A stretch of 37,124 bases of DNA from Saprospiraceae bacterium. Its GTDB lineage: Bacteria > Bacteroidota > Bacteroidia > Chitinophagales > Saprospiraceae. The translations under genes and the position numbers were made by a program. Shown piece by piece: positions 2-27,655 of the stretch (position 1 is its first letter; the number at the start of each line of letters is the position of its first letter). The stretch covers positions 1 to 37,124 of the forward strand of contig JAQXAY010000126.1 in the NCBI GenBank assembly GCA_029252685.1, in the 5' to 3' direction. The notes under the pieces were generated by a model. It had not been told where the DNA came from and ran no database searches. It worked only from the letters and a program-made list of their open reading frames with translations.

Positions 2-3000
2 GAAAACAATGGTCTGTTCCAATATGATACCCAAAAAGATAAAATTGAACAATTTCTTCAAGACAATAAAATATTAAACAGCCTGCCCTCCAACTCCATC
101 TGGTCCATGCATGCAGATAGAGATAATATTCTTTGGCTTGGATTCTACTTTAAGGGCTTATCAAAAATTGACCCGCTCGAACAGAAATTCCGCCCTACCT
201 TCAACTTCACCGACAAGAATAAAGTCTATGACCTTGACCTTGTCTCCTCGTTTGCTGAGGATTCGGATGGTACCCTTTGGATTGGAATGGATGGAAATGG
301 ACTCTACCGAATCAAACCCGACGGATCAATTACCTACTACAATGACAACAGTGGTCATAACCTTGAGAGCAACAATATAACTGATATAGAATTAGACGCG
401 GCGGGCAACTTATATGTCTCCACTTGGGGTGCTGGACTAAAATATTTGGAAGCTGGCAAAAACTACTTTACCAATCTAGAGCTGATATTAACTGAGTCTG
501 AAACATCTAAACTCTTTAATCTTATACTTGATAGTAAAGACCGTTTGTGGGTCAACAATTACCAACATGGATTTGAGATAATAGATACTAAGACCAAAAA
601 GAACCTAAAGTTTAGCTCGGGTGGCGAAAAATACTTGGGCTCAGACAAGTTCCACGGGATAGCTGAAGATCAATTTGGTAATATTTGGCTCGGATCATCC
701 AACAATGGCATCACACGAGTAAGTATTGATGACCAACTTAATATTGTTGACCTGAAATCATTACAGGAATTATCTGAAAGCACACAACTTACCGAGTGTA
801 TCATATCTTCAATATACGCTGCTTCAGATGGAAAAATTTGGATAGGAACACGGTCAAAAGGCTTATTCTATTATGATTCAAAAAGTCTTCAAACGCATCT
901 TATCACCGATAAAGTAAAACTGCCCAGCAATAATATTTATAGTATAAATGAAGATGCAAATGGGAGTATCTGGGCAGGTACCAACAAAGGACTCATACGA
1001 CTAAACCCTAAAACATTAGAATTAGATCACTTCCAAAAATCAGATGGACTTCAGTCTAACGAGTTTTTTAAAAATTCATCCTTCAAGAGCAAATCTGGTC
1101 AACTTTATTTTGGAGGTATTTCTGGATTCAATAGTTTTTATACCGATGAATTCATACTAAATGTCAAAAAACCTAAGGTCTATATTACCGATCTAGAGGT
1201 TGCAGGAAAACCACAGAAAATAAAAGGAGAGAATTACTTCAACAATAGTGCGATGAATTTCAATCATCAAGACAATGACCTAACAATTAAATTTAGCGCA
1301 ATAAATTTTTCTCAATCCTCAAAAAATATTTACAAATATCGCCTCGAGGGATATGAAGAAAACTTTCAGATCCTTCAAAATAGTCAGGAGGCACGATACC
1401 CAAATCTAAGCCCTGGCAAATATACTTTTGAACTGATGGCAGCTAACAATGATGGTGTCTGGTCGGATGAGAAAGTACATATGGACATAGTAATTCGAAA
1501 GCCATGGTATTTGACCTACATAGCCTACTTTATTTATCTTATTGGAATTGTCAGTTTCTTTCTTTGGAGAAGACAACAATTAATCGCCCGTCAGCGATTG
1601 AAGTATGACTTAAGGCTAAGAAAAAGGGATCTCGATCGGATGCATGAAATGGATAAGATTAAGACGCGTTTTTATACCAATATATCCCATGAATTAAAAA
1701 CCCCCGTAACGCTCATTATCAGCCCATTAAAAAACCTTATCACTAAATTTGGTGAGCGAGCAGAGAACAACAAAACTTATAAACTGATGCTCAACAATGC
1801 AGAAAATCTGCATCGCTTGATTAATCAGATCCTGGAAATTTCAAAGATCGAAGCTGGAAAATCAAATTTTAAACCAGGTAAACAAAACATAAATACATTC
1901 ATTAAAAATATTGGAATCAACTTTTCTGGCTATGCCGATGAAAAGCAAATTCGATATGATATAGAGCTTCCTAAAACAGATCAAAACATTTACTTCGACC
2001 CTGAAAAACTGGAACGAGTTTTTGTGAATCTAATATCAAATGCCTTTAAGTATACTGCTAAATATGGTATTGTAAAGATATCTCAAACTTCTAAACCAAA
2101 CTGGCATTTTATTCATATTGAGGATAATGGAGAAGGGATTAAAAAAGAAGAGCAGGCGTATATATTCGATCGCTTCTATCGCTCCGAAAAAGAAAATCAC
2201 AAAACAGGAACTGGGATTGGCTTGGAATTAGCAAAGCAAATTGTTGAACAACACAAAGGCTATATCAAATTAGAATCTGAACCTAATATCCGAACAATCT
2301 TTACCGTGGCACTAAAAAAAGGAAAGTCCCACTTCCCTTCAGGATTAATAAATGATGTAGATACATCTGACTTTAAGTTTAGTGAAGAATCGGTTATAGA
2401 GCTTAAAAACTATCAAACCAAAAAATCCAACAATAATATAAATCAGCCTATTCCGATTACGCAAATGTCATCAACAGTAGATAAACCATTGATCTTAATT
2501 GTAGAGGACAATCCAGATCTACAAGAGTTCCTCGTTCATTTGTTTCATAAAGACTATAAAGTACTAAAGGCAAATAATGGTCAAGAAGGGCTTGAGCTTG
2601 CAAAAAGTAAAAAACCTAAGCTAATCATTACAGATGCAATGATGGATCAAATGGATGGTTTTGAAATGAGTAAAAAGATCAAAGAAGACCCAGATCTCAG
2701 CCATATAATGATCATTATGGCGACAGTTAAAAGCTCAAAAGAATCGCGCGATAAAGCATACCAACATGGAGTTGATGCCTTAATGACAAAGCCATTTGAT
2801 CCAGAGGTATTATTGCTAAGAGTCAGTAATTTCCTCAAGGTCAAGCAAAATATTAAGGCGAATATATTCAATCCATCAAATCTGACTGCCAATACTGCAG
2901 ACGCAGATGATTTCATCCCCTTTAAAGAAGCTGATGAGCGCTTTATTAAAGAGGTTGTTCAAGTAATAGAAACCAATCTTAACAAGCCCGACTTCACCAT

Positions 3001-3289
3001 AGAAGACCTGTGCAAGTCCATTGGGGTAAGTAAGAGTAATCTTTACAGAAAAATCAAGTCAATACTGGGATGCACAACCAATGAACTTATCAGAAATACT
3101 CGAATAAAAAAAGCTGCACACTTATTAAAGAATAGTGACCTAAAGATCTCTGAGATCACCTACCGGGTTGGGTTTAATGATTTACAATACTTCAGAAAAT
3201 GTTTCAAAGAAGTCTATAAAATGACTCCTTCAGAATTTGGAAAAGCGGCTAAGCAAAACAAGAGAAAAATGAGCATTACTAAAAATTAA
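2..3289 (+). CDS. Hybrid two-component system (HTCS) sensor/regulator, 5' partial
   Basis: The reading frame is open to the left window edge, so the N-terminus is missing; about 1095 residues are visible. Numbering from the first in-window Met (107): several two-component-regulator propeller blades (e.g. LWIGMDGNGLYRI, IWIGTRSKGLFYY, IWAGTNKGLIRL), a Y_Y_Y-type domain (about 385-465), one membrane segment (about 467-489), HisKA with SHELKTP and phospho-acceptor His528, HATPase with NLISNAFKYT, DNGEGI and GTGIGLELA boxes, a receiver domain with VEDNPDL and phospho-acceptor Asp843, and a C-terminal AraC-type HTH (about 946-1050). This is the classical HTCS layout: a periplasmic propeller senses an oligosaccharide and the AraC domain activates a polysaccharide-utilisation operon. 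Full-length HTCS proteins are usually longer, so roughly 250-300 residues are probably outside the window. Its stop overlaps by 11 bp the convergent FG-GAP gene, making the susCD operon the natural target (inferred). Confidence 0.95.
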   Translation, partial: ENNGLFQYDTQKDKIEQFLQDNKILNSLPSNSIWSMHADRDNILWLGFYFKGLSKIDPLEQKFRPTFNFTDKNKVYDLDLVSSFAEDSDGTLWIGMDGNGLYRIKPDGSITYYNDNSGHNLESNNITDIELDAAGNLYVSTWGAGLKYLEAGKNYFTNLELILTESETSKLFNLILDSKDRLWVNNYQHGFEIIDTKTKKNLKFSSGGEKYLGSDKFHGIAEDQFGNIWLGSSNNGITRVSIDDQLNIVDLKSLQELSESTQLTECIISSIYAASDGKIWIGTRSKGLFYYDSKSLQTHLITDKVKLPSNNIYSINEDANGSIWAGTNKGLIRLNPKTLELDHFQKSDGLQSNEFFKNSSFKSKSGQLYFGGISGFNSFYTDEFILNVKKPKVYITDLEVAGKPQKIKGENYFNNSAMNFNHQDNDLTIKFSAINFSQSSKNIYKYRLEGYEENFQILQNSQEARYPNLSPGKYTFELMAANNDGVWSDEKVHMDIVIRKPWYLTYIAYFIYLIGIVSFFLWRRQQLIARQRLKYDLRLRKRDLDRMHEMDKIKTRFYTNISHELKTPVTLIISPLKNLITKFGERAENNKTYKLMLNNAENLHRLINQILEISKIEAGKSNFKPGKQNINTFIKNIGINFSGYADEKQIRYDIELPKTDQNIYFDPEKLERVFVNLISNAFKYTAKYGIVKISQTSKPNWHFIHIEDNGEGIKKEEQAYIFDRFYRSEKENHKTGTGIGLELAKQIVEQHKGYIKLESEPNIRTIFTVALKKGKSHFPSGLINDVDTSDFKFSEESVIELKNYQTKKSNNNINQPIPITQMSSTVDKPLILIVEDNPDLQEFLVHLFHKDYKVLKANNGQEGLELAKSKKPKLIITDAMMDQMDGFEMSKKIKEDPDLSHIMIIMATVKSSKESRDKAYQHGVDALMTKPFDPEVLLLRVSNFLKVKQNIKANIFNPSNLTANTADADDFIPFKEADERFIKEVVQVIETNLNKPDFTIEDLCKSIGVSKSNLYRKIKSILGCTTNELIRNTRIKKAAHLLKNSDLKISEITYRVGFNDLQYFRKCFKEVYKMTPSEFGKAAKQNKRKMSITKN

Positions 3290-5528
3290 TACATTCCGCA
3301 AGTGGCTCATTCCCCAGCGCAACCCGACGAGCTGATAATAACTCAGGATTCTTGTTCTGTTCAATTAAATAAAACTGATTCAGTTTTAAGTCTTCATAGG
3401 TTGTAATTGTATTATCAACATCAGGCCAATAGACCGTCAACTTCTCAACTTGACTAGCAAGACCAAGCCCCATTTCTACTCGCAAGGTATTTGCCCCAAA
3501 GGATCCTCCTGAATGCACTGTGTTATGCAGTACCTTTGATTCTCCATTAGCCATTTTTAGTTCAAACTTCAGCCTTGCTCCAATAGCAGCTTGGTTTGCC
3601 TCCGTTCCAGACAATTTCAAGGTGATCCAATTATTTGCTTCAAACCCTGGATTCTTTAATAGCATATTGTGGAAAACATCACTCTCTACAGCTCCACCTA
3701 CTTGATGATAGATATCTTGATCTCCATCATTATCTAAATCACCAAAGGACACTCCGTGGCCTTTTTGAATCATTCCAAAACCACCCGGATGGGTAACATC
3801 ATCAAATCCGTCCGAATCGTTGTGTACATACATTTTATTAGGAACGGCAGCCCACAGGTTAAATTCACCCGTACCTGAGTAAAAATCGTAGCGCCCATCA
3901 TTATTTAGATCGCCAAAATTACCCCCCATAGTATACAAGGACTCGTCTAGTCCTTTGACTACAGTTTTTTCAAATTTCGTCCCCCCTTTATTCAAGTATA
4001 AGGTTGGTTTATTCGTTGAGCTAGCTAGCCCCAGATACTCTTTACATACTTGAGAAGATATATTAAATGGATCTGAATTGTCATAAGAAAATACAAATAG
4101 ATCTTCCCAACCATCATGATCATAATCCCAAAACCAAGAAGAAAACGAATAGCTTGGCTCTTGAACACCATAGGCTTCTGCTTTGTCAATAAATGTCGGC
4201 ACACCATCTTGAAGTCCCTGATGGATATAAAGTTTATTTTTTCCGTGATAGACAGACAGAAACAGATCTGGCCAACCATCGTTGTTTACATCTGAAAAAT
4301 TGGCAGACTTAACAAACGCAAACACTTCAAGACCAGCATCTACAGATACCTGCTGAAAGCGTTCTCCTCCTAGATTTAAAAACAGGTCGGAGGGCAACTG
4401 GACTGACCCTGATTCATTGCCAACAAAGATATCCAAAAGACCATCTTTATTTACATCTGCAACAGCTACTGCACCACTTGGTTTTTCATTGAAGATTCCT
4501 GACTGCTCGCTAATATCTTCGAAGTACAGACCTTTCCGATTCATCAATAACGAATTAGGTAACTGCCCATTCTCTCCCAACCAAGCACCACGCATAATAA
4601 ACACATCCGTCCATCCATCATTATTAAAGTCTCCTTGTATGCAATTCAATCCTCCTTTGAGTACATCCACTCCAGAACCTATACTAAGATCCTGAAAGGC
4701 TCCACCTCCTGTGTTTTGATAATAATGTGTTTGATCTGATAAACCATAGGACGTAGTAAAAATATCCAAGAGGCCATCATTATTAAAATCTTCAATGATG
4801 CTACCTCCAGCATGATCCATAGATGCAACGCCAGACTCTAAAGCGATATTTGGAAACTTAGGAAAAGACTCTTGGGTGTAAAATTTTTCCGGTGCTATCC
4901 GAAAACGCTTATCCATTTGAGCAGGATAATCACCTGCTGCCATACTTGAAATATTATAAAACCATATGGACTGATAATCCTTTGGATTGTATTCAAGTAA
5001 AGTTTCGTAACAGTCTTTTGCTAACCTCGCAGGTGTTGCAAGTGCATGAATCCCTTTACCTTCCAAGGGGATTATGCAGGATTCTCCATTGTGATTATAA
5101 ATACAATTTTGATATTCAGCGTCTCTCAGATACGCTAGTGCAAGTGCTTTATAGTGTTGCACAGTTTGAGGAGTTACCTTCTTTTTTTCTACCCCAAGAT
5201 TCAGAAACTCAATCAATACATTTATGGCTTTCTGATTTTGTCCATTGAGGAGGAGCATCAGGCTATAATCCAATGCAGAACTGTATCTCATTTGTTCAGG
5301 TCTAGCATCATACTCGCGTTCAAACTTCTTCAGCATAAATTCTGTATAGTATGGAACTTGTCCAGAAATTTGTGCAGCCTTCCCTTTGTTATCAAGAATA
5401 TTCCCCATCTCGAGGTTAGAGATGGGGGTTTTACTTTTAGTACAAGAATTCAGTGCCAGCAGTGTTAAAAAACTGCAGCCAAGAATTCTAATTATTTTAA
5501 TTGAGTATTGCCATTTGTTCGTCTGCAT
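3279..5528 (-). CDS. TPR + FG-GAP/VCBS repeat + ASPIC/UnbV lipoprotein (CRTAC1-like)
   Basis: 749-residue predicted lipoprotein. The N-terminus has a hydrophobic stretch ending LLALNSC, a lipobox. Residues about 55-215 look alpha-helical and TPR-like (a tally of repeated units plus CYETLLEYNPKDYQS). Residues about 235-620 carry repeated FG-GAP/VCBS units with the calcium-loop pattern DFNNDGxxDIF, DVNKDGLLDIF, DLNNDGRYDFY and DLDNDGDQDIY. The C-terminus (about 645-735) is an ASPIC/UnbV-type domain with GARLKFE, HSGGSFGANT and LTVYWPD. Such proteins are probably surface beta-propellers; no catalytic residues are recognisable. I chose the ATG at 5528 over the GTG one codon upstream. It overlaps the end of the preceding gene by 32 bp, implying translational coupling, and is the last gene of the susCD operon. 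The biochemical role is unknown; glycan or protein binding at the cell surface is inference. Confidence 0.85.
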   Translation of the reverse strand: MQTNKWQYSIKIIRILGCSFLTLLALNSCTKSKTPISNLEMGNILDNKGKAAQISGQVPYYTEFMLKKFEREYDARPEQMRYSSALDYSLMLLLNGQNQKAINVLIEFLNLGVEKKKVTPQTVQHYKALALAYLRDAEYQNCIYNHNGESCIIPLEGKGIHALATPARLAKDCYETLLEYNPKDYQSIWFYNISSMAAGDYPAQMDKRFRIAPEKFYTQESFPKFPNIALESGVASMDHAGGSIIEDFNNDGLLDIFTTSYGLSDQTHYYQNTGGGAFQDLSIGSGVDVLKGGLNCIQGDFNNDGWTDVFIMRGAWLGENGQLPNSLLMNRKGLYFEDISEQSGIFNEKPSGAVAVADVNKDGLLDIFVGNESGSVQLPSDLFLNLGGERFQQVSVDAGLEVFAFVKSANFSDVNNDGWPDLFLSVYHGKNKLYIHQGLQDGVPTFIDKAEAYGVQEPSYSFSSWFWDYDHDGWEDLFVFSYDNSDPFNISSQVCKEYLGLASSTNKPTLYLNKGGTKFEKTVVKGLDESLYTMGGNFGDLNNDGRYDFYSGTGEFNLWAAVPNKMYVHNDSDGFDDVTHPGGFGMIQKGHGVSFGDLDNDGDQDIYHQVGGAVESDVFHNMLLKNPGFEANNWITLKLSGTEANQAAIGARLKFELKMANGESKVLHNTVHSGGSFGANTLRVEMGLGLASQVEKLTVYWPDVDNTITTYEDLKLNQFYLIEQNKNPELLSARRVALGNEPLAECINF

Positions 5529-8500
5529 CACTATCCTTTTTCAACGCATAAATCTGAAGAGGTGCATTATTATTCCCAAAAATCAACATATCTCTGCCGT
5601 CCTCATTAATTTTTATAATTTGTCTTGTCTCATAAGGCACATGGAAACCACTAAGGTCATTAGGGATTAGATCAAATGAATTCCCACCTTTATTTTTCAA
5701 TAATAAGCCATAAGAGGCATCTGATCGAGGTGTTTCAACCTCCGAATCAAACATATTTCCTGCTAAAATCAGATCCAAAAATCCATCTGCATCAATATCG
5801 ATTGTCTCAATAGCATTTATATTGGACATTTGAACTTCCACCGGTAATTCGAGCGAGCGAAATCCAGCTTTAGGTTCTCTGATAAAAAGCATAGTATTGA
5901 ACTGGTTAGCCCTATAGTGCAGTGCATTTTCAAGATTTGAAGCGCCATAGATACCTGCAAGATCTGAACTTGCAAAAGCATCATAGGAATTAAATTTTCG
6001 TTTGATACCTGGAACCTGCTCAGAACTGCATTGCTTTCCGCGCACTGGATACTGCTTGTCTCCTTCGAAATATCCCAGTACAATATCTAGGTTATTATTT
6101 CCATCAAAATCATCTACAAATACATCAAAGGTCTTTCCATGTCTAGCTTTATATTTATAATTATTCCCAAGGTTACCAGCTATCAAATCCTTGAGGCCAT
6201 CATTATTAATATCTACGAGTTTAAGGCAATTCCACCAACCAGTATAATCATCCCTGAAAAAATCTTCCGACCGATCCACCAGTTCGAATCCATTATTTAG
6301 AAAAACTTTCGGACTCATCCACTCCCCGACTAATATCAAGTCTTGTTTCCCATCCTGGTTAAAATCACTCCAATCAGCATCTGTTACCATACCTACATCC
6401 TGCAATACTTCATTAAAAGAAGCCGCAGCAAGTTTGAATTGTATGCCTCCTTCTTTTGAAATATTCTCCAACAGATAACTACTTGCCGGAAGGGGATACT
6501 GCCCTGGTATTTGTCGCCCTCCAACGAATATATCCATGTCACCATCCATATCGAAATCTACCATCCTGAGAACAGATACTGAACTTCTATAATCTGCAGG
6601 AAGTGCTGAATCAAAGGCAACAAATTTACCATTATCATTCCTATAAAAACGATCTTTATAATACTCGGAATCCACTACCTCCTCGGAGCCAGCCATACCA
6701 ATCATTAAATCCATGTCACCATCTTTATCGGCATCTATAAAAAGTGCTGCATTAGATTCTTGGTCTACATCACCAAGAGTCTGTACTTGTTTATTTCCAC
6801 TACCGTCGATGGTTAGCACTTTAGACGCTTGACCCTGGGCGCCACCCATGAAGATATATTTTGAAGATTGATCGAGTGCTTCACCATAAGCCAATCCGGG
6901 ACCAAAGCTAGACATCTGATGAGGAATGAGAATTTCCCGCTCAAAATCATCGAATGTATTTTCTTTATGTCCCCAAGATAACTGAGCGATTTCCAGAGGC
7001 TCAAAATAAGCCTCTGAAACCTGCTCCTTATGTTGTGCTAATTCAGCACTACCAATTATTAATTCTCTATTCTGATTCACAGCAAGATCTTTTACAACCT
7101 CTCTAAGTCCAGTCGGCCAAAGAATAATCAGGCTATCTACTTTCTGATCTTTTCCAAGACCAAAGTGTACTTTTTCTGATACAGCCGATTGGAATCCTCT
7201 AGTGCGTGTGTGTTCGTGGAACTGGGTTTTACCGTTGTGGTGAAGCCACATTTTGGCACCCAGTCCATTTTGGTTTTTTGAAGAACCTTTAAGTTTAAAG
7301 GTTATAAAATTGTTGAGTCCTAATTCACTACTAAGGTTCTTAAATACGCTTGCTGTGGTATCTATATTATTTGTTATCAATTCTAAATCTCCATCATTAT
7401 CAAGGTCTGCATATGCCAGTCCATTTGAAAAATCCTCACGAGAGATTCCCCATGCTTTGTTTACATGTTCGAAATGTTTTCCATCTACATTTTTGAACAT
7501 GTAGTTATCCACTTTTTTGGATGGCATCTTATCCATTAAATCACTAAGGGACAACTCTTTGTACTTGACTTTAAGACTAATATCTATTCGTTCAAGCCAA
7601 TTGAAGTAATCTTTATTATTTATATCTTTTCTGGTTCCATTAGTTATATACAGGTCTTTTAGACCATCGTTATCATAATCCGCAAAGAGGCAAGCCCAGC
7701 TCCAATCGGTACTCTCAAGATTTGAGAATTTGGCTTGATCGCCATAGAATGGAATTCCGTCCTTTGTCCCCTGGTAGGTTTGAAGGGAATTGTACATGTA
7801 TTGGTAATGAAATCCAAGATCTACATTATTGCGAAATGCTTGGATATCCATACTTGCCATATTGGCTTTAGATCTATAATTATCGACAGGAGACATATCC
7901 AGCTGAAAGATATCCAGCTTTCCATCTTGATTGAAGTCTGCCGCATCCACTCCCATTCCATAAAAGGATGTGTGTGTAAAGGATTCTTCAATATGATTTT
8001 CGAAAGTCCCATCGCCCTTGTTGATAAAAAATCGATCTGGTGTGCTAAAATCATTGGATAGATAGATATCGATGTATCCATCTTGATTGAAGTCATTTGC
8101 TAGAACACCGATGGTCAATCCAAAATTTTGTATACCGGCAGCTGCGGTCACATCGATAAAGTTTCCGTTTCCATCATTTTGGTAGAGATGATCTGAGGCA
8201 CTCCAACTATTTTTATCCAATTTCCTTTTATACTCAAAGGAATAAGAATCAAATGGAGTAGGCTCATAATTACCTACTAAAAGGTCTAAGTCTCCATCAT
8301 TGTCGTAATCAAAAAAAACAGATTGAATAGAGTAACTTGAATCTGCAATACCATAAGCATCTGCTTCCTCAGAAAACTGTGGCACGCCCGCTTCATCAGG
8401 TCCTTGATTGATCCAAAGTTCATTCTTTCTACTTGCCCATCTTCCGGCAACAGATATATAAATGTCTTCTAAGCCATCTTGGTTCACATCAGCAATTGTG

Positions 8501-8862
8501 GCTCCCGTGTACCATTTTTGTTGACTTTCTATACCACTCAGCTTAGTGATGTTCTCAAATTGAAGATCACCTGTATTCATGTAAAGCTGGTTCTCTACCA
8601 TATTACCTGTAAAGAAAACATCTTCTAATCCATCACTATTAAAATCTCCAACAGCAACACCCCCTCCCATATAGAAATATCCATAATTGAAGAAGTTCAT
8701 TGAATCTGTCACGGTCAGATCATTCCTGAAATCTATGCCACTTTCAGCATCTGTGATTTCTGTAAATATTTTCGAAGATGATTCTTTTGAAGACAAGTCT
8801 TTATCGGAACAAGCACTAAACAGTACTACAAGAAGGAAAACGATTCCAACTGCTCTATTCAT
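5497..8862 (-). CDS. Large FG-GAP/VCBS repeat lipoprotein with ASPIC/UnbV domain (CRTAC1-like)
   Basis: 1121-residue predicted lipoprotein. The signal ends VVLFSAC, and the residues after the Cys (SDKD) are acidic-rich, similar to surface-export signals known in Bacteroidota. FG-GAP/VCBS repeats begin about residue 65 (GVAVGDFNSDGLEDVFF, IADVNQDGLEDIYI, DYDNDGDLDLLVG, DFNQDGYIDIYLS) and run to about 500. An ASPIC/UnbV-type domain follows at about 525-605 (GLGAKMWLHHNGKTQFHEH, VHFGLGKDQ, LIILWPTG). A second block of FG-GAP repeats fills the C-terminal half (DADKDGDMDLMIG, DFDMDGDMDIFVGG, DFNQDGKQDLILVG, DIDADGFLDLILAG). The layout suggests two propellers flanking the ASPIC domain. The ATG at 8862 lies only 12 bp after the T-tract of a hairpin terminator that follows susD. 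It occupies the place where SusE/SusF-type surface glycan-binding proteins usually sit, so a binding role at the SusCD complex is plausible but unproven. Confidence 0.85.
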   Translation of the reverse strand: MNRAVGIVFLLVVLFSACSDKDLSSKESSSKIFTEITDAESGIDFRNDLTVTDSMNFFNYGYFYMGGGVAVGDFNSDGLEDVFFTGNMVENQLYMNTGDLQFENITKLSGIESQQKWYTGATIADVNQDGLEDIYISVAGRWASRKNELWINQGPDEAGVPQFSEEADAYGIADSSYSIQSVFFDYDNDGDLDLLVGNYEPTPFDSYSFEYKRKLDKNSWSASDHLYQNDGNGNFIDVTAAAGIQNFGLTIGVLANDFNQDGYIDIYLSNDFSTPDRFFINKGDGTFENHIEESFTHTSFYGMGVDAADFNQDGKLDIFQLDMSPVDNYRSKANMASMDIQAFRNNVDLGFHYQYMYNSLQTYQGTKDGIPFYGDQAKFSNLESTDWSWACLFADYDNDGLKDLYITNGTRKDINNKDYFNWLERIDISLKVKYKELSLSDLMDKMPSKKVDNYMFKNVDGKHFEHVNKAWGISREDFSNGLAYADLDNDGDLELITNNIDTTASVFKNLSSELGLNNFITFKLKGSSKNQNGLGAKMWLHHNGKTQFHEHTRTRGFQSAVSEKVHFGLGKDQKVDSLIILWPTGLREVVKDLAVNQNRELIIGSAELAQHKEQVSEAYFEPLEIAQLSWGHKENTFDDFEREILIPHQMSSFGPGLAYGEALDQSSKYIFMGGAQGQASKVLTIDGSGNKQVQTLGDVDQESNAALFIDADKDGDMDLMIGMAGSEEVVDSEYYKDRFYRNDNGKFVAFDSALPADYRSSVSVLRMVDFDMDGDMDIFVGGRQIPGQYPLPASSYLLENISKEGGIQFKLAAASFNEVLQDVGMVTDADWSDFNQDGKQDLILVGEWMSPKVFLNNGFELVDRSEDFFRDDYTGWWNCLKLVDINNDGLKDLIAGNLGNNYKYKARHGKTFDVFVDDFDGNNNLDIVLGYFEGDKQYPVRGKQCSSEQVPGIKRKFNSYDAFASSDLAGIYGASNLENALHYRANQFNTMLFIREPKAGFRSLELPVEVQMSNINAIETIDIDADGFLDLILAGNMFDSEVETPRSDASYGLLLKNKGGNSFDLIPNDLSGFHVPYETRQIIKINEDGRDMLIFGNNNAPLQIYALKKDSDADEQMAILN

Positions 8863-8873
8863 AATAGTTTTTT

Positions 8874-8900
8874 AAAAAACCCGGGCCATAGGACCCGGGT
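8874..8900 (-). terminator. Intrinsic terminator between susD and the FG-GAP genes
   Basis: On the minus strand the sequence forms a perfect seven-pair GC-rich stem (ACCCGGG pairing with CCCGGGT, extendable by two pairs including a G-U) with a short loop, followed by a run of six T. It lies 26 bp after the susD stop and 12 bp before the next start codon on the same strand. It should end most susCD transcripts and lower expression of the two downstream FG-GAP genes. Some readthrough is assumed because no clear promoter is visible in the 63-bp gap. Confidence 0.8.
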
Positions 8901-8925
8901 CTACTCTCACTGAATATTATAGTTC

Positions 8926-10440
8926 TTAGTAACCTGGGTTTTGAGTCAAGTTACTAGCTCTAAGTATTTCATTTTGTGGTATAGGAAGCAATTCATGCTT
9001 ACCAGTCTGGAAGTCTTCAAGCTCATCAGCAGCCATGCCCCAACGAACTAGATCGATATAACGGAATCCTTCCAAAGCAAGCTCTAATTGACGCTCTTTA
9101 ACGATTGCGTTCAACAGATCAGAACCTGTAGCAGTTACATCTGCCAAACCAACTCTTGATCTTACTTTGTTAAGTTCAGTTTGTGCAGCTCCATCATTTC
9201 CAGCTCTATGATTTGCTTCTGCAGCCATCAATAGAACATCAGCATAACGAATCAATCTCCAGTTTGTCCCATAATTCAACGCAAACACGTCATCATTAGA
9301 CTCTGTAGAATATGCACCATACTTTCTTCTTAAGAAACCTACGTAATCAAATGTATCAGTACCATCATACTCACCACCTGCATCAATGAATTCCTGCTCA
9401 GACATTACTGTAGAAGCCCTTCTTACATCATCACCTTCAGCAATAAATGCATCCCAAAGCTTAGCAGAAGGGTAGTTAAATCCCCATCCGTTGTTCAACG
9501 AATCAACACCAGAGAATACACCTTCACGTGCACCCATCAACTGAATGTGAATATTTGACTCTGAACGAGATCCCCAAGGGTAACCATTTGCACCCCAATC
9601 ATATCCTGCAGTCTCAATATAAACTGCCTCCATGATAGACTCCGTTCCAAGCTCACCAACCTCTGCGAATACATCCCCGTATTCTGCTTCAAGACCGTAT
9701 TCAGCTGAAGAAATAATTGTTCCGAATGTAGAAGCTGCCTCAGACCATTTTTCTTGGTAAAGTTGAGCTTTACCTAAGATTGCATGTGCAGTACCTTTAG
9801 ACATTCTGAACTTGTCCGCACTAGAGTATTCACTCTTGTTTGGAAGTACAGCCGCTGCCGCATTTGCATCTGCCTCAATTTGAGCATATACATCTGCTGC
9901 GCTTGATCTAGACTGATTGTACTCAGAAGGAGCAAGCTCAGTAAGAATCACAGGAACACCTCCAAATAGTGATGCTAACTCTAGGTAGTAATATGCACGA
10001 AGTGCTTGTGCCTCTGCTATCAAACGATCTTTAAAGTCATTATCTGCTTCAACATTGTTTATCACAAGGTTAGCTCTATAAATACCATAGTAATTAACTG
10101 CCCAAGTTCCTTCAATAGGAGCATTGGTAGCATCGAATTCCATTCTGTCAATCGCTACATAATTTGGCTGGTCACCTGAATTTGCACCACCTGCCTGAGA
10201 TTCATCAGACGGAAGCGTCTTTACCATATATGGAGAAGACCATCCAGAACCCCATTGGTTCTGATGCCACTGAAGAATATCGTAAACAGCCATTGTTGCC
10301 TGATTAGCATCATCGTCTGTTTTATAGAATTCATCAACTGAAAGTTGATTATTTACATCTACATCAAGGAAATCAGCACAAGCGTATATTCCTACGAATA
10401 ATACTAATGCTCCAAATCCTTTTATTAATAATGATTTCAT
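8926..10440 (-). CDS. susD: SusD/RagB family outer-membrane nutrient-binding lipoprotein
   Basis: 504 residues from the ATG at 10440; a TTG six codons upstream also stays in frame but leaves only a short gap from the susC stop and is less likely. The signal peptide ends VGIYAC and is followed by ADFLDVDVNNQLS, the typical mature start of SusD proteins. The helical, TPR-like scaffold includes IYRANLVINNVEAD and AEAQALRAYYYLELASLFGGVPVI, and the C-terminus has the family signature LIRYADVLLMAAEA ... RQLELALEGFRYIDLVRWG ... LLPIPQNEI ... NLTQNPGY. SusD caps the SusC barrel on the cell surface and helps bind the oligosaccharide. It lies 18 bp downstream of susC. The substrate cannot be read from the sequence. 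Confidence 0.95.
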   Translation of the reverse strand: MKSLLIKGFGALVLFVGIYACADFLDVDVNNQLSVDEFYKTDDDANQATMAVYDILQWHQNQWGSGWSSPYMVKTLPSDESQAGGANSGDQPNYVAIDRMEFDATNAPIEGTWAVNYYGIYRANLVINNVEADNDFKDRLIAEAQALRAYYYLELASLFGGVPVILTELAPSEYNQSRSSAADVYAQIEADANAAAAVLPNKSEYSSADKFRMSKGTAHAILGKAQLYQEKWSEAASTFGTIISSAEYGLEAEYGDVFAEVGELGTESIMEAVYIETAGYDWGANGYPWGSRSESNIHIQLMGAREGVFSGVDSLNNGWGFNYPSAKLWDAFIAEGDDVRRASTVMSEQEFIDAGGEYDGTDTFDYVGFLRRKYGAYSTESNDDVFALNYGTNWRLIRYADVLLMAAEANHRAGNDGAAQTELNKVRSRVGLADVTATGSDLLNAIVKERQLELALEGFRYIDLVRWGMAADELEDFQTGKHELLPIPQNEILRASNLTQNPGY

Positions 10441-10458
10441 TTTAAGATTTTTACACAA

Positions 10459-13400
10459 TTAGAAAGAAAGGTTAGCTCCAAACATGATTTTCTTAGGTAG
10501 TGGATAAACACCTCTGTCAATCCCCTGAGAACGATCATCACCTGAACCAACTTCCGGATCCATTCCTACATACTTCGTAAATGTAAAGAAGTCTTCTAGA
10601 GAAACGTAAACACGTGCTCCTTTCCAAACTGAATTTTGATTGAAGTTATAGCCTAACTGCATCTGCTTGATACGAAGGTAAGAACCATCAAATACCATAA
10701 AGTCAGAATTGTAAGCATATATATTGTCACTATTAGCTCTGAACCAATCATTAGATCCACTACCTTCAGTCCAACGATCTTCGTAGAAGAATGCTGGCTT
10801 GTTAGCAGACGCACGATCCGTACGGTTGTATCCTAAAAGGATATCATTACCAACTGATCCTTGCATAAACATAGTGAAGTCAAATCCTTTGTACTCAGCA
10901 GCCAAACGCACACCAAATAGCATATCAGGATGTGGGCTACCGATGAAAGTCTGGTCAGCTGGAGTGATTGCTCCGTCTTCGTTTACATCAACAACTCTTG
11001 GATCGCCAGCTGCAAAACCTTCTGTCAAACCATATTTTTGCATATAAGTAACAGCATCTTCCTCAGACTGAAGAATTCCTTCTGTTTGGTAACCTCTAAA
11101 GTACCAAGCCGGAAGACCAGTTTCAAATGCAGTAGCTGTCCAACCAACACCTACACCAGCACCTGGTGCAAAGTCTAGATTTTCATCCAAAGCAGTAACT
11201 TCATTCTGAATTCTTGTCATATTTGCACCCAATTCGAAATCAAGATCTCCGAATGAGTTTCTGTAAGTAAGTTCTACTTCCCAACCTTTGTTTGAGACAT
11301 CACCTAGGTTTACAGTAGGTGCATTATTACCAACAAAGTTAGGAATAACCCCTTGGTTCAATAGATTCTTAGTTTCCTTCTGGAAATAATCAACTGTAAG
11401 TGCAACGCGATCGTTGAACAAGCCTAAATCGATACCGAAATCCAATTGCTGAGAAGTTTCCCAAGTCAATTCTGGATTTGAAAGGATTGTTGGCTCTGCA
11501 GCAATATTTAGGTTTCCGTCGCCATCAGGATATGCATTTCCGAAACCAATTGCTGATTTCCATGCCCCTGGGCGAAGGTTTGCTAAACTACCATTCTGTC
11601 CCCAACTTGCTCTTACTTTCATAAAGTTAAGTGCACTTGATGATGGGAAGAAATCTTCTTTTGAAACGATCCATCCTAATGATGCAGATGGGAAAGTACC
11701 CCACTTGTTTCCATCAGCTAGTAAAGAAGATCCATCTCTTCTCATTACAACGCTCAAAAGATATTTACCAGCATAGTCATAGCTTACACGACCGAAGTAA
11801 GACAATAGGTTAGATTGAGATTCGCCACCGTTTGCAGTAGTGAACTCATTACCTGGTTGCACTGAACCTAGGTAACCAAAGTTGTCTGACTCAATAATCA
11901 AACCAGAACCTGCTCCAAGAACATAGCTATTTGAGTATGAGTACGCAGATGTACCCGCCACAACAGATATATTATTTAAGCCAAACGATTTGTTGAAGTT
12001 AAAGTAGTTCTCCCACTGAATATTTGAATTATTCCAGTGTGTTTGCTCTACAGTTGCAATATTAGACTGAGAAGTAGCTGTAAAGAAGTATGAAGGCGTC
12101 CAATTGTGGAATCTTCCATATTCATTATCAACACCTAGTCTAGAAGTAAATGTAAGACCTTCTACAAGCTTAAGTTCAGCAAACATAGAACCCATTAAAC
12201 GATTAGTCGTATTACCACTACCGTTTAACAAATGCTGAGCCGCTACTGGATTGTAGATCTCACCGTTTACAAACTCAGACATACCATATACATTACCGTC
12301 TGCATCAGTAAGGATGCTGTTACCAGCGTCAACTTGATCCTGAACGAATGAAGGTATAGCACCAGAATAAGTAACTGGAGTCAATGGATCCATCATGATA
12401 GCGTTACCAAGAACACCACCAAACTCAGAATCCTCTGCAATACCTTTACGGTTTGAATTTGTGTAATTAATACGAACACCTACGTTCAATCTGTCATTGA
12501 CTTTTGAGTTGATATTCGCACGAAAAGCAGTACGTGTAAATTTGTCACGATCTCCAACTACCATACCATCTTGATCAAAGTATGACCCTTGCACATAGTA
12601 ATTAGATTTTTCATTACCACCCGCAAATGATAAGGTGTGATTTTGCATTGGAGAAGCTTCGAAAACTTCATCCAACCAGTTCGTGTTTATACCTGCTGCT
12701 TGCACCATAGAATCAGTACGGCCCATTACTCCAGCTTCTTGCATATATGCAGCATGCTGACTTGCATCCATTAACTGAAGATTGGTGTTGAGATTCTGGA
12801 TACCATACTGAGCAGAGTACGTAATAGTGCTCTCTCCAGATTTTCCAGATTTCGTAGTAATGATAACAACACCGTTTGCACCTTCAGCACCATAGATAGC
12901 TGCTGCAGCTGCATCCTTAAGGATTTCGATGTTCTCAACCTCTCCTGCTGAAAGGAAAGAAATGTTTTTTGTTCTCATACCATCCACAATGTAAAGTGGT
13001 TCAGCATTCCCATTAGAACCTGTACCACGAATACGTACCTTAAATCCTGAACCAGGAGATCCTGAATTCGGTAGGATAGATACACCTGCAGATCTACCTT
13101 GAAGGGAAGACTGCAATTGGCCATTTGAAAGGTTTTGAATTTCGTCTACCTCAATACTTGAGATGGCACCGGTTAACTGACTCTTTTTCTGACGTCCGTA
13201 ACCAACAACCACTACTTGATCCAGCATTTCTGAACCAGCTTCAAGCTGTATTGAAATATTGTCCTGACCTTCTACAGAAACATCCATAGATTGATATCCC
13301 GTATAAGATATCTCTAAAATGCTTGATCCTTCTGGAAGGTTTACTGTAAATGCGCCGTTGATATCAGTGGCAGTACCTGAAGTGGTACCTTTTACTAATA

Positions 13401-13545
13401 CAGTTGCGCCAACTAAAGATTGACCAGTTTCATCCGTCACTTTTCCGGATACATTCCTCTGAGCAAACATGCTAAAGGAAAGGGTCATTAAAATTGCCAA
13501 ACTAAATAAATGTTTGGTTCGTCTAGTGAAAGAATGTCTATTCAT
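10459..13545 (-). CDS. susC: SusC/RagA family TonB-dependent outer-membrane transporter
   Basis: 1028 residues from the ATG at 13545 (a TTG two codons upstream is also in frame). A signal peptide ends FSMFAQ. It is followed by a carboxypeptidase-regulatory-like domain (about 30-110: NVSGKVTDETGQSLVGATV, GTATDINGAFTVNLP), a TonB-box-like QVVVVGYG, and a plug domain (ALxIVDG-type EPLYIVDGM, IEILKDAAAAAIYGAEGANG, VVIITTKSG). The rest is a long beta-barrel ending in the aromatic-terminated strand IMFGANLSF. The length is normal for the SusC subfamily. Together with SusD it imports oligosaccharides (or other large nutrients) across the outer membrane using TonB energy. It is the first gene of the operon, with a candidate promoter 69-100 bp upstream. 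There is no N-terminal anti-sigma signalling (STN) domain, consistent with control by the nearby HTCS rather than an ECF sigma pair. Confidence 0.96.
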   Translation of the reverse strand: MNRHSFTRRTKHLFSLAILMTLSFSMFAQRNVSGKVTDETGQSLVGATVLVKGTTSGTATDINGAFTVNLPEGSSILEISYTGYQSMDVSVEGQDNISIQLEAGSEMLDQVVVVGYGRQKKSQLTGAISSIEVDEIQNLSNGQLQSSLQGRSAGVSILPNSGSPGSGFKVRIRGTGSNGNAEPLYIVDGMRTKNISFLSAGEVENIEILKDAAAAAIYGAEGANGVVIITTKSGKSGESTITYSAQYGIQNLNTNLQLMDASQHAAYMQEAGVMGRTDSMVQAAGINTNWLDEVFEASPMQNHTLSFAGGNEKSNYYVQGSYFDQDGMVVGDRDKFTRTAFRANINSKVNDRLNVGVRINYTNSNRKGIAEDSEFGGVLGNAIMMDPLTPVTYSGAIPSFVQDQVDAGNSILTDADGNVYGMSEFVNGEIYNPVAAQHLLNGSGNTTNRLMGSMFAELKLVEGLTFTSRLGVDNEYGRFHNWTPSYFFTATSQSNIATVEQTHWNNSNIQWENYFNFNKSFGLNNISVVAGTSAYSYSNSYVLGAGSGLIIESDNFGYLGSVQPGNEFTTANGGESQSNLLSYFGRVSYDYAGKYLLSVVMRRDGSSLLADGNKWGTFPSASLGWIVSKEDFFPSSSALNFMKVRASWGQNGSLANLRPGAWKSAIGFGNAYPDGDGNLNIAAEPTILSNPELTWETSQQLDFGIDLGLFNDRVALTVDYFQKETKNLLNQGVIPNFVGNNAPTVNLGDVSNKGWEVELTYRNSFGDLDFELGANMTRIQNEVTALDENLDFAPGAGVGVGWTATAFETGLPAWYFRGYQTEGILQSEEDAVTYMQKYGLTEGFAAGDPRVVDVNEDGAITPADQTFIGSPHPDMLFGVRLAAEYKGFDFTMFMQGSVGNDILLGYNRTDRASANKPAFFYEDRWTEGSGSNDWFRANSDNIYAYNSDFMVFDGSYLRIKQMQLGYNFNQNSVWKGARVYVSLEDFFTFTKYVGMDPEVGSGDDRSQGIDRGVYPLPKKIMFGANLSF

Positions 13546-13613
13546 GAACAACAGAATTAAATTAGCATTCGGTTAACAATATGTTAAATCTAATTCGATA
13601 AAAGCCACAAACA

Positions 13614-13787: not shown

Positions 13788-13829
13788 ATTTACCCACCTT
13801 AAATGGTATAAGACACTATGCTAATTACC

Positions 13830-13855
13830 ACAAATCTTAAGGAGATTTGTTTTTT
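13830..13855 (+). promoter_or_regulatory. Leader hairpin with T-run upstream of the GH3 gene
   Basis: A perfect 8-bp stem ACAAATCT (13830-13837) pairs with AGATTTGT (13843-13850) around a 5-nt loop and is followed by a run of six T. It is terminator-shaped but AT-rich, and ends 28 bp before the chosen GH3 start. It could be a weak terminator or leader attenuator, or could block the upstream alternative start at 13818. Confidence 0.45.
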
Positions 13856-13883
13856 AATATTACTTATTAACCACTATAACATT

Positions 13884-16145
13884 ATGCTAAAATATATCAA
13901 GTTTATCCTAGTTCTGGGTATGCTAATCACAGGGCTAACTGTAGAGGCACAGAACAATGCATCCAAATTTACGGATGCGGATATTGAAGCTTTGATCAAC
14001 AAAATGTCCATTGAAGAGAAAGCAGGACAAATGACTCAGGTTACAATTGACATGATCCTAAAAGAGAAGTCATCCACTGAGATCGATGAAAAGAAACTTC
14101 GGTATGCTATAAAGGATATGCAAGTAGGCTCCATTCTAAATGTCAAATGGCATTCCTATGATCTAGCAACCTGGGACAAAGTCCTGACAGCAATACAGGA
14201 TGTAGCTACAAAAGAAACCAGACTAGGTGTTCCAATCCTATATGGGATTGATGCCATTCACGGAGCGAACTACACACAGAATGCTACCCTTTTCCCGCAC
14301 AATATTGGTATGGCTGCTTCTAGAGACAGATCTCTAGTAAAAGCAGGTGCTCAAGTTACAGCAAAGGAAGTTCGTGCCAGTGGACATAGATGGAATTTTG
14401 ATCCGACATTAGGTGTAGGAAGACAACCCTTATGGGCAAGATTTGAAGAAACTTTTGGAGAGGACACCTATTTAGCATCAGAGTTAGGTGCAGAGGTAAT
14501 AAAAGGTTATGAAGAAAAGGGACTAGACCATCATGAAGCTGTTGCCTCATGTATGAAACACTTCATCGGTTATTCAAATCCTAGATCAGGAAAGGATAGA
14601 ACCCCTGCATATATGTCCGACAGAGAATTGAGAGAACACTATCTACCTACTTTCCAAGCAGCAGTAGATGCAGGTACCTCAACTGTAATGATTAACTCTG
14701 GAGAATTAGACGGAATGCCTGTTCACGCAAGTAAGTATCTCCTTACTGATGTATTAAGAAATGAACTTGGTTTTGAAGGAATGGTCGTATCGGACTGGGA
14801 GGATGTAATCCGACTAAAACTAAGAGCACACGTTGCAGAGACGCATAAAGAAGCTGTTCGCCTAGCTGTAGATGCTGGATTAGATATGTCTATGGTTCCT
14901 TTAGATTATTCCTTTAGAAACCATCTTATAGATTTGGTAAAAGAGGGCACAATTAGTGAGGAGCGCCTAAATGAGTCAGTTAGAAGAATCCTTGTGCTTA
15001 AAAGAAACCTTGGTCTTTTTGACAACCCATATACCGAAGAAGAGGCAAGAAAAAACTTCAACCTGGACAATTATACAGAAGTTGCTCTTACTGCTGCACA
15101 GCACAGTATGACTTTATTAAAAAATGAAGATCAGGTGCTTCCTATGAAAGCAGGGCAGAAAATTCTTTTAGCAGGACCGGCAGCGAATGAATTTACCTGT
15201 CTCCACTCCTCTTGGTCATTTAACTGGCAGGGTAATGCAGCAGAATACTATCCGAAATCTACAGAAACCATTTACGATGCAATGAAGCAACGATTCGGTG
15301 CGGATAATGTAAGCTGTGCTTCTACCAATAAATTTGAAGATCCTAAAAATACGGATGCTGCTAAATTGACAAAAATGGCTGCGGATGCTGATGTGATCGT
15401 ACTTTGCCTTGGGGAAAAGGCATATGCAGAATCACCAGGTGTAATCAATGACCTTACATTGGATCAAGAACAACTTGAACTAGCCGAAGCTGCAATTGCT
15501 ACGGGTAAGACTGTAATCTATGTACTTGTGCAAGGAAGACCAAGAGTAATCAACAGTATTGAAGCGGGTGCAAAAGGAATCCTACAAGCATACAGACCTT
15601 CAAGCCGTGGAGCAGATGCAATCGTAAGTGTTCTAAGTGGAGACTTCAATCCATCGGGTAAGCTACCATTTACGTATCACAGGAATACCGGTGACATAGT
15701 ACTATATGACCATAAATTTGCAGAGACATTCACTGAACTTGCTCCTGGTGAGATTGGTGGCAGCGGTTTTAACCCACAATGGCAATTTGGCCACGGATTG
15801 AGTTACACAACTTTTGAATATGGAAAAATGAATGTTGATAAGACAAACTTTTCTGGAGATGAAAAGGTAACGGTTACAGTTAGTGTAACAAACACTGGTG
15901 ATCGTGATGGCCATCATGCTGTAGAGCTCTTCTCAAGAGATGACTATGCTTCAGTGTCTCCTTGTGTAAAAAGACTAAGAGCTTTCGACAAAAAGCTAAT
16001 CAAGGCAGGAACTACTGAATCTTTCAGTTTCACAATTGATTCAGATGATCTTTCCTTTATCAATTTTAAAAGTGAACGAATCACTGAAAAAGGAACCTTC
16101 TCCTTGTTCATTGATGATCAGTCGGCAAGTATCCGATATGAGTAA
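13884..16145 (+). CDS. bglX: Glycoside hydrolase family 3 beta-glucosidase
   Basis: 753 residues from the ATG at 13884. An in-frame ATG at 13818 exists, but starting at 13884 gives a clean signal peptide (MLKYIKFILVLGMLITGLTVEAQ), implying export to the periplasm. The GH3 N-terminal barrel contains YGIDAIHGANY, NFDPTLGVGRQPLWARFEE, KHFIGYSNPRSGKDR and the nucleophile motif GMVVSDWED, with Asp304 (numbered from 13884) as the predicted nucleophile. The GH3 C-terminal domain (GKTVIYVLVQGRPRVI, GKLPFTYHRNTGD) and a fibronectin-like domain (about 665-750) follow. The family removes terminal beta-linked glucose or other beta-glycosyl units from oligosaccharides. It diverges from susC and could process what SusCD imports; this would point to a beta-glucan rather than starch, but GH3 specificity cannot be read here. 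A terminator follows immediately. Confidence 0.92.
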   Translation: MLKYIKFILVLGMLITGLTVEAQNNASKFTDADIEALINKMSIEEKAGQMTQVTIDMILKEKSSTEIDEKKLRYAIKDMQVGSILNVKWHSYDLATWDKVLTAIQDVATKETRLGVPILYGIDAIHGANYTQNATLFPHNIGMAASRDRSLVKAGAQVTAKEVRASGHRWNFDPTLGVGRQPLWARFEETFGEDTYLASELGAEVIKGYEEKGLDHHEAVASCMKHFIGYSNPRSGKDRTPAYMSDRELREHYLPTFQAAVDAGTSTVMINSGELDGMPVHASKYLLTDVLRNELGFEGMVVSDWEDVIRLKLRAHVAETHKEAVRLAVDAGLDMSMVPLDYSFRNHLIDLVKEGTISEERLNESVRRILVLKRNLGLFDNPYTEEEARKNFNLDNYTEVALTAAQHSMTLLKNEDQVLPMKAGQKILLAGPAANEFTCLHSSWSFNWQGNAAEYYPKSTETIYDAMKQRFGADNVSCASTNKFEDPKNTDAAKLTKMAADADVIVLCLGEKAYAESPGVINDLTLDQEQLELAEAAIATGKTVIYVLVQGRPRVINSIEAGAKGILQAYRPSSRGADAIVSVLSGDFNPSGKLPFTYHRNTGDIVLYDHKFAETFTELAPGEIGGSGFNPQWQFGHGLSYTTFEYGKMNVDKTNFSGDEKVTVTVSVTNTGDRDGHHAVELFSRDDYASVSPCVKRLRAFDKKLIKAGTTESFSFTIDSDDLSFINFKSERITEKGTFSLFIDDQSASIRYE

Positions 16146-20159: not shown

Positions 20160-20170
20160 GTTCTATATAT

Positions 20171-21532
20171 TTAGCGAATAGATTCTTTTTCTGTAATCAA
20201 TAAGTTACATAAACCTGCTATAATTAAGCAAGTACCTGCCAATAACATGGTTGAAATAGTCTGATCTCCAAAGATCAGGTAACTTACATTTACCCCTCCC
20301 ACAGCAGCTAGGATTTGGGGAATAACAATAAACATATTGAAAATACCCATGTAGACACCCATCTTTTTTTCATCGATTGAAGAGGATAACATAGCGTATG
20401 GCATAGACAATATTGACCCCCATGAAAAACCAATCAACGCAAAACACAGATTAAGGTATTGGTAATCTGGGATGAAAAACATCAATATAAAACCTAGCCC
20501 ACCAAGAATCAAGGAGACTAAGTGCACCAACTTCCTGTTTATGCGGACTTTGGCAGTAATGAATGTTAGTATGAATGCAAATAGCATAGACGAGAGTCCA
20601 TAAACCCCCATATAACTACCCACTAAGTTTGCAGATTCATTATATGCTGTCAGTGCTTGTTGAAACATAGCAGTTCCTGCTTCAGGAAAAGGAGTTTGAA
20701 AAACATGTTCCGTCAGAGCTGGTGTTGCCATTGACCACATAGTAAAGAATGCAAACCAGCTAAAAAACTGCACCAAGCCAAGTTTTTGCATAACCTTTGG
20801 CATGCCGAGCACATTGTTTATGATCTCTTTTGCTCCATCAAAAAATCCAGCTTTAGCCTTTTCTGCTTCAAAGGCTTCTAGGTCTTCTGGTGGATACTCA
20901 TCTGTGGTAAAGATAGTAACCAATATAGAAGCAATGAAAATAACAGCTCCTATACCAAAAGCAATCTTCACATCACTGGGAATAACACCTGCGACTGATT
21001 CTTCAACTATCCCCATACGGTCCATTACGCTTTTGACCATAAAAGGAAGTTTACTTGCTACCCATGTTCCTATACCGATGATTAATGTCTGGATAACGAA
21101 GCCATACGATCGTTGCTCCTCTGGTAATTTATCTGCGACAAGTGCTCTAAATGGTTCCATAGAGATATTTATGGAAGCATCTAAGACCCAAAGCGAACCT
21201 ACTGCCATCCACAATGTGGAAGAGTAAGGCGCAAAGAAAAGCGTAACCGATGCCAACACTGCCCCTACTAAGAAAAAGGGCCTTCTCCTACCAAGCCGCG
21301 GATGCCAAGTCCTATCACTCATATAGCCAATAATCGGCTGTACAATAAGTCCCGTCAAAGGCGCAGCAATCCAAAGCATTGGAATATCATCTTTTGCTGC
21401 ACCAAGGGTCTGAAAGATCCTTGACATATGACCTCCCTGAAGTGCAAATCCGAACTGGATTCCTAAGAACCCGAAGCTCATATTCCAGATTTGCCAAAAG
21501 GTGAGTTGTTTTTTAGAATATCCTGAATTCAT
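20171..21532 (-). CDS. MFS sugar transporter (maltose/sucrose, SLC45/GPH-like)
   Basis: 453 residues with about 12 hydrophobic membrane segments. The N-terminus FWQIWNMSFGFLGIQFGFALQ and the loop SDRTWHPRLGRRRPFF (the MFS loop 2-3 motif with the R-rich end) are typical of the SLC45-like sucrose/maltose permeases found next to maltose phosphorylase genes in Bacteroidota. Its place between GH13 genes and in one operon with GH65 and pgmB indicates uptake of maltose or short malto-oligosaccharides across the inner membrane, probably with protons. Starts at ATG 21532, 20 bp after the upstream GH13 stop. Specificity is inferred from context. Confidence 0.9.
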   Translation of the reverse strand: MNSGYSKKQLTFWQIWNMSFGFLGIQFGFALQGGHMSRIFQTLGAAKDDIPMLWIAAPLTGLIVQPIIGYMSDRTWHPRLGRRRPFFLVGAVLASVTLFFAPYSSTLWMAVGSLWVLDASINISMEPFRALVADKLPEEQRSYGFVIQTLIIGIGTWVASKLPFMVKSVMDRMGIVEESVAGVIPSDVKIAFGIGAVIFIASILVTIFTTDEYPPEDLEAFEAEKAKAGFFDGAKEIINNVLGMPKVMQKLGLVQFFSWFAFFTMWSMATPALTEHVFQTPFPEAGTAMFQQALTAYNESANLVGSYMGVYGLSSMLFAFILTFITAKVRINRKLVHLVSLILGGLGFILMFFIPDYQYLNLCFALIGFSWGSILSMPYAMLSSSIDEKKMGVYMGIFNMFIVIPQILAAVGGVNVSYLIFGDQTISTMLLAGTCLIIAGLCNLLITEKESIR

Positions 21533-21552
21533 AATTTTTATGTTTGGTGGAG

Positions 21553-22956: not shown

Positions 22957-22963
22957 TTATAGC

Positions 22964-27641: not shown

Positions 27642-27655
27642 TATTTATCTATCCT

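Follow-up and report, generated by a model that had tools for sequence, protein, structure and literature searches.

What is transported by a SusCD pair whose only operon partners are two large FG-GAP/ASPIC lipoproteins, and what do these partners contribute? The stretch of DNA analyzed here (the window) is the entire contig C212, 37,124 bases, of a Saprospiraceae draft genome of 3.44 Mb in 297 contigs. Four tightly packed genes run on its minus strand in the order SusC-SusD-FGL-FGs. They encode a SusC-type TonB-dependent transporter of 1030 aa (10459-13551; Pfam CarbopepD_reg_2 and Plug, and its position in the SusC tree), a SusD lipoprotein lid of 510 aa (8926-10458; PF07980, E 9e-37), and the FG-GAP/ASPIC proteins FGL (5497-8862; 1121 aa; FG-GAP_3 E 2e-55, UnbV_ASPIC E 3e-18) and FGs (3279-5531; 750 aa; FG-GAP_3 E 1e-34, UnbV_ASPIC E 2e-9), the frames of which overlap. 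Both are lipoproteins by signal sequence (lipoboxes FSAC and LNSC, respectively). The gene content given in the original prediction was confirmed by these Pfam matches and lipoboxes.

The same prediction stated that the operon has no SusE/F-like gene and no hydrolase, and the Pfam scan found neither inside the four-gene run. However, the part on hydrolases is true just literally because a GH3 gene is recurrently linked to these operons. Two members of the locus had been omitted. One is this GH3 beta-glucosidase (13818-16145, plus strand; Pfam), which is divergent from SusC and has BoGH3B (5jp0, E 7e-180) as its best solved relative. The other is a hybrid two-component (HTCS) regulator (2-3289, plus strand) with Reg_prop, Y_Y_Y, HisKA, HATPase, receiver, and AraC domains (Pfam), which is convergent with FGs, overlaps it by 11 bp, and is truncated at its 5' end where the contig stops. 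With SusC adjacent to SusD, a linked carbohydrate-active enzyme (GH3), and a sugar-sensing regulator (HTCS), the locus has the composition of a Sus-like PUL, and FGL, as the lipoprotein in the third slot behind SusD, stands where SusE/F-type surface binders stand.

The nearest solved structures of the window SusD are GMSusD (6GCZ, E 1.6e-59), a laminarin binder, and BtSGBP-A (7KV2/7KV3, E 8e-42), in which W62, W288, and W319 hold laminarihexaose (PMC11351036). In the alignment, this tryptophan triad is complete in the window SusD (minus strand), as W69 counted from the TTG start (10252-10254; W62 of BtSGBP-A), W288 (9595-9597; W288 of BtSGBP-A and W287 of GMSusD), and W325 (9484-9486; W319 of BtSGBP-A and W323 of GMSusD). 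Among FGL-linked SusDs, a complete triad was found only in the closest group of the window (L107, L109, L135, and L149); the triad of L169 is kept across two frame-split pieces, and L108 has two of the three tryptophans. The SusC tree placed the window SusC in a 28-row clade (SH-aLRT 100) comprising the window group of seven, all 18 SusCs of GH16 loci, and three others, while a strict clade of the window group and the GH16 SusCs alone was weakly rejected (p-AU 0.039). Among the 20 loci fetched for the nearest SusCs outside the window clade, 18 contain GH16 and 12 a PKD homologue, in the usual order SusC-SusD-PKD or unknown lipoprotein-GH16, often with GH3. The same genome also has a canonical laminarin-type locus on contig C8 (L014), with a PKD glycan-binding lipoprotein in the third slot. 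GH1 adjoins L149, and a GH1-like gene adjoins L112.

From these sequence relationships, we assigned the window SusC and SusD to the laminarin lineage (laminarin is an algal beta-1,3-glucan). The window resembles laminarin-type PULs in its SusC clade, SusD kinship, and linked GH3, and HTCS regulators are also present in several of these PULs. In contrast to them, it contains neither a PKD binder nor, in the Pfam scan of the window, a GH16 gene, and FGL and FGs fill those places. A glycoprotein or proteoglycan-like substrate had been suggested previously. However, it was favored by no neighbor gene, either here or among the relatives sampled. This substrate is unsupported because SusC, SusD, GH3, and the neighbors in relatives indicate beta-glucan or beta-glucosides for the window and a range of glycosides for other loci.

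The gene order is not due to chance because it is retained in a close relative, a Sphingobacteriales MAG (G001, locus L107), with identities of 90% for SusC, 93% for SusD, 82% for FGL, 79% for FGs, and 79% for HTCS. The L107 genes are spread over two contigs, and FGs again adjoins HTCS. Two samples of FGLs, both chosen by similarity to the window FGL, were collected from 80 regions of the GTDB family of the window and from 79 loci of titled GTDB genomes. Of the 69 FGLs from named genomes, 55 are part of a SusCD operon; SusD is directly upstream in 36 of the 69. In the same-family set, SusD is the immediate same-strand upstream gene of 23 of 98 FGLs, compared with approximately 0.2 expected by chance (485 SusD matches in 61 genomes), a rate that holds for near relatives because the FGLs were selected by similarity to the query. 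SusC or SusD is upstream in the operon for 38 of the 98, and either gene is found within three genes on any strand for 54. The susC-susD-ASPIC order, which the original prediction proposed to look for in other Bacteroidota, is widely kept, and FGL is not found beside unrelated genes in most of the close relatives.

The FGL tree agreed with this result. The window FGL falls in a 28-row clade (SH-aLRT 99), all members of which follow a SusC-SusD pair; 26 were scored as in-operon, and L087 and L118 have the SusC-SusD-FGL order with a longer gap. The SusCD-linked label requires 20 changes on this tree versus 57 after label shuffling. Over 75 triplets, FGL distances correlate with SusD distances at r 0.80 and with SusC distances at r 0.83 (0 of 2000 permutations); inside one family, r is 0.63 (0 of 5000 permutations). 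Shared species history adds to all of these values, most in the wider set. Conserved order and co-variation together ruled out a chance neighborhood. The window genome encodes seven ASPIC proteins, of which FGL and FGs alone adjoin SusCD; the other five are beside unrelated genes, and several of them hold positions kept in the genus. GH3 is near SusCD-FGL in L108, L109, L115, L118, L123, and L145, and an HTCS-like partner is present in L108, L109, L115, L116, L118, L123, L145, L149, and L169. The SusC-SusD-CRTAC1 module spans Flavobacteriaceae, Cytophagia-type families, Saprospiraceae, and Chitinophagales, and the one control genome that is a Bacteroides encodes SusD but no ASPIC protein. The pairing of SusCD with FGL is common in Bacteroidota outside the gut.

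Variations on this arrangement were also noted. In many Muricauda/Flagellimonas loci (L138, L140, L142, L143, L144, L146, L148, L156, L157, L165, and L168), SusC-SusD-lipoprotein-FGL is found at a fixed place, adjoining genes with N-termini that resemble those of rpsL, rpsG, and fusA, in the manner of a core locus of these genera. In Reichenbachiella faecimaris (L109, 13297-19767), FGs forms part of an open frame of 2156 aa, apparently as the result of a fusion. In a Saprospiraceae MAG (L169, 5345-10320), SusD and FGL are both split by frame changes, reflecting decay or an assembly error.

Although FGL is co-inherited with SusCD, the pairs do not descend as a single unit. A topology with all FGL-linked SusCs as one clade was rejected (p-AU 6e-55), and the SusC tree requires several origins. 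The window SusC group stands apart from the main FGL-linked SusC lineage, and the window FGL groups with the FGLs of that lineage. Because the SusC and FGL trees conflict, FGL and FGs appear to have taken the place of the PKD binder and GH16; the simplest history would be a laminarin-type SusCD that apparently gained the former two and lost the latter two. GH16 and PKD homologues were found in none of the 80 FGL-linked loci, versus the 18 and 12, respectively, of the 20 laminarin-type loci above.

The enzymes encoded in the 80 FGL-linked loci are mainly exo-acting (GH63-like in 13, GH3 in 6, GH31 in 4, GH1 in 2, and GH97 in 1), with GMC or keto-glycoside genes in 7, sulfatases in 5, and GH10 in 2; these counts are illustrative, as the seeds were taken from the FGL loci themselves. 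Given this prevalence of exo-acting enzymes, FGL systems may be geared to oligosaccharides and small glycosides. A GMC oxidoreductase is present in Christiangramia/Muricauda FGL loci (L110, L111, L113, L114, L117, L124, and L130), mostly accompanied by gluconate 2-dehydrogenase subunit 3 and sometimes by a 3-keto-disaccharide hydrolase; these genes suggest a pathway for keto-glycosides.

The predicted structures assign FGL and FGs to the CRTAC1/ASPIC family, in which an FG-GAP propeller is followed by UnbV_ASPIC. The AlphaFold2 model of FGL (pLDDT 91.9, pTM 0.92) consists of an N-terminal calcium propeller (residues ~30-525; 7288-8775), an ASPIC/UnbV beta-sandwich (PF07593, residues 533-597; 7072-7266), and a C-terminal seven-blade propeller (residues ~615-1110; 5533-7020), all encoded on the minus strand. 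The N-terminal half, from residue 30 to ASPIC, matched murine CRTAC1 (9ETN) with Z 40.1 and an rmsd of 2.4 over 462 residues, and a profile search of FGL against solved structures returned CRTAC1 (E 2e-31), followed by integrin alpha chains. In FGs (pLDDT 87.9), a TPR-like helical arm at the N-terminus precedes a propeller and ASPIC, and the C-terminal two thirds matched CRTAC1 with Z 38.6. Unlike CRTAC1, FGL has an extra seven-blade propeller and FGs a TPR-like N-terminus, and both are bacterial lipoproteins paired with SusCD.

Residues 615-1115 of FGL, the second propeller, matched many seven-blade propellers. Many charged and aromatic residues of FGL that lie outside the calcium loops show at least 93% conservation across 82 sequences, SusCD-linked and solo copies alike. 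Those in the C-terminal propeller are R738, R783, Y789, E847, W848, W876, K903, R941, C945, Q949, E1041, E1043, and R1046, and many of these are located in loops that follow strand two of a blade. Based on this conservation, the C-terminal propeller may hold a functional pocket. A search for a specific enzyme kinship of this propeller was negative: generic propellers ranked equally (VIA-align).

In Bacteroidota, lipoproteins destined for the surface have an acidic export signal right after the lipidated cysteine (PMC5080379), a rule established in a small number of species and based in part on SusD-like proteins. We scored this signal as the net charge at +2..+6 plus a DD motif, accommodating Capnocytophaga-type signals; a stricter rule excluding K and R agreed. 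The mean net acidic charge was 1.94 for SusD, 1.76 for the third-slot binders of laminarin loci, and 1.44 for GH16, versus -0.40 for GH3 (5 sequences) and 0.00 for FGL (80 sequences; p 4e-7 against third-slot binders). A net acidic start was found in 86% of SusDs versus 11% of FGLs. Among the 57 operons readable for both proteins, SusD alone has the signal in 43, both have it in 6, and neither has it in 8. The window FGL starts with CSDKDLS, and its own signal is ambiguous because two acids are accompanied by one lysine, a borderline case. The Pfam scan detected no Por_Secre_tail or CHU_C (type IX secretion) domain in FGL or FGs; GH13a (17307-20159) has one. The FGL family is most likely periplasm-facing, as judged from its N-termini, with the reservation that this export signal may not apply universally and that other surface routes may exist. 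FGL had been regarded previously as a surface capture module. Its position agrees with this view, as C8 and related loci have a glycan-binding lipoprotein in the third slot; however, the capture role itself is unsupported because the family lacks the export signal carried by SusD and third-slot PKD binders.

Our preferred explanation, which we hold with moderate confidence, is that the locus is a beta-glucan PUL in which FGL and FGs have replaced the PKD glycan-binding lipoprotein and the GH16 endo-glucanase that would otherwise be the third and fourth genes. Beta-1,3-glucan (laminarin-like) oligosaccharides or related beta-glucosides would be imported by SusCD and sensed by HTCS, and GH3 would trim them to glucose. 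FGL, a lipid-anchored calcium double propeller, would be a dedicated partner of SusCD, most likely facing the periplasm, and may take over or process the compounds imported by SusC. FGs, which bears the TPR-like arm, may serve as an additional scaffold. The lack of GH16 in the window counts against this explanation because whole laminarin could not be cleaved by the locus alone.

A somewhat less probable explanation, which we regard as doubtful, places FGL on the surface as a glycan-binding protein that takes the role of SusE/F or the PKD binder and passes glycan to SusCD. FGL is a lipoprotein co-inherited with SusCD, and it shares its operon position and lipid anchor with SusE, SusF, and other third-slot surface glycan-binding proteins, including the PKD binder of C8. 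Its fold differs from theirs, it is much larger, and the export signal is absent in most FGLs (71 of the 80 readable linked sequences); no operon has the signal on FGL and not on SusD. Furthermore, a separate lipoprotein with an acidic start is present beside FGL in L108, L090, L136, and L148. BtuG, a lipoprotein with a beta-propeller fold, is a precedent for such a partner. It associates with the TonB-dependent transporter BtuB (PMC10404256) and is, like FGL, a lipoprotein linked to such a transporter; however, BtuG serves vitamin B12, while FGL combines a pair of calcium propellers with an ASPIC domain. It is unlikely, in our estimate, that FGL is instead an enzyme, with the C-terminal propeller as an uncatalogued glycoside-processing domain, such as a hydrolase or lyase whose substrates are imported glycosides. 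The conserved C-terminal residues and their pocket-like placement in loops are consistent with catalysis, as are a match to the propeller of aldos-2-ulose dehydratase (Z 28) and the keto-glycoside genes of Christiangramia loci. However, the non-enzymatic propellers LGI1 and WD40 also matched with Z 25-31, sequence links lead to CRTAC1 and integrins and to no enzyme, and these residues are kept even where the substrates differ greatly.

A role in alpha-glucan uptake also needs to be considered because a GH13/GH65 operon lies directly behind GH3. This starch/maltose operon (17307-28306) encodes GH13 (with a T9SS tail and CBM48), an MFS protein, two further GH13s, GH65, and a HAD phosphatase, and it holds five of the six GH13 matches of the genome (three of four genes). 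It has no SusCD, SusE, or SusF of its own, and there is no second SusCD on the contig. SusCD-FGL may then be its outer-membrane importer; the operon starts less than 4 kb from SusC, and a GH13-CBM26 gene is located downstream of FGs in L108. Nevertheless, we consider this improbable: both SusC and SusD trace to the laminarin lineage, with the tryptophan triad in SusD, GH3 is nearest to beta-glucosidases, and relatives of GH13 and GH65 were found in only 0-1 of the 80 FGL-linked loci.

The SusC-SusD-FG-GAP/ASPIC architecture is real and conserved, and is without explanation in the open full-text literature that we searched, in which we found no paper treating this CRTAC1 module. Its new aspect is a laminarin-type Sus system with CRTAC1-type partners instead of a binder and an endo-glucanase. 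Knowledge on SusCD mainly comes from gut Bacteroides, and this type of partner, not yet assayed, may be widespread among environmental glycan importers. The window genome offers a natural experiment because it encodes a pair of related SusCDs, of which one has the canonical PKD binder (C8) and the other FGL. We speculate, although we regard this wider proposal as unlikely, that CRTAC1-type double propellers may be a general, exchangeable, periplasm-facing class of SusCD partners in non-gut Bacteroidota, possibly with a conserved catalytic pocket, and would define a second Sus type for oligosaccharides and small glycosides without surface binders or endo-enzymes.

Some FG-GAP neighbors of FGL have additional features. 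Short FG-GAP proteins near FGL carry a CxxCH haem-c motif at their N-termini in L079 (10296-11801), L111 (18204-19742), L151 (18779-20293), and L182 (12659-15673), and a TPR protein with weak cytochrome matches adjoins SusCD-FGL in L121 (15203-17815). Based on these motifs and cytochrome-like matches, some FG-GAP partners may have a redox role.
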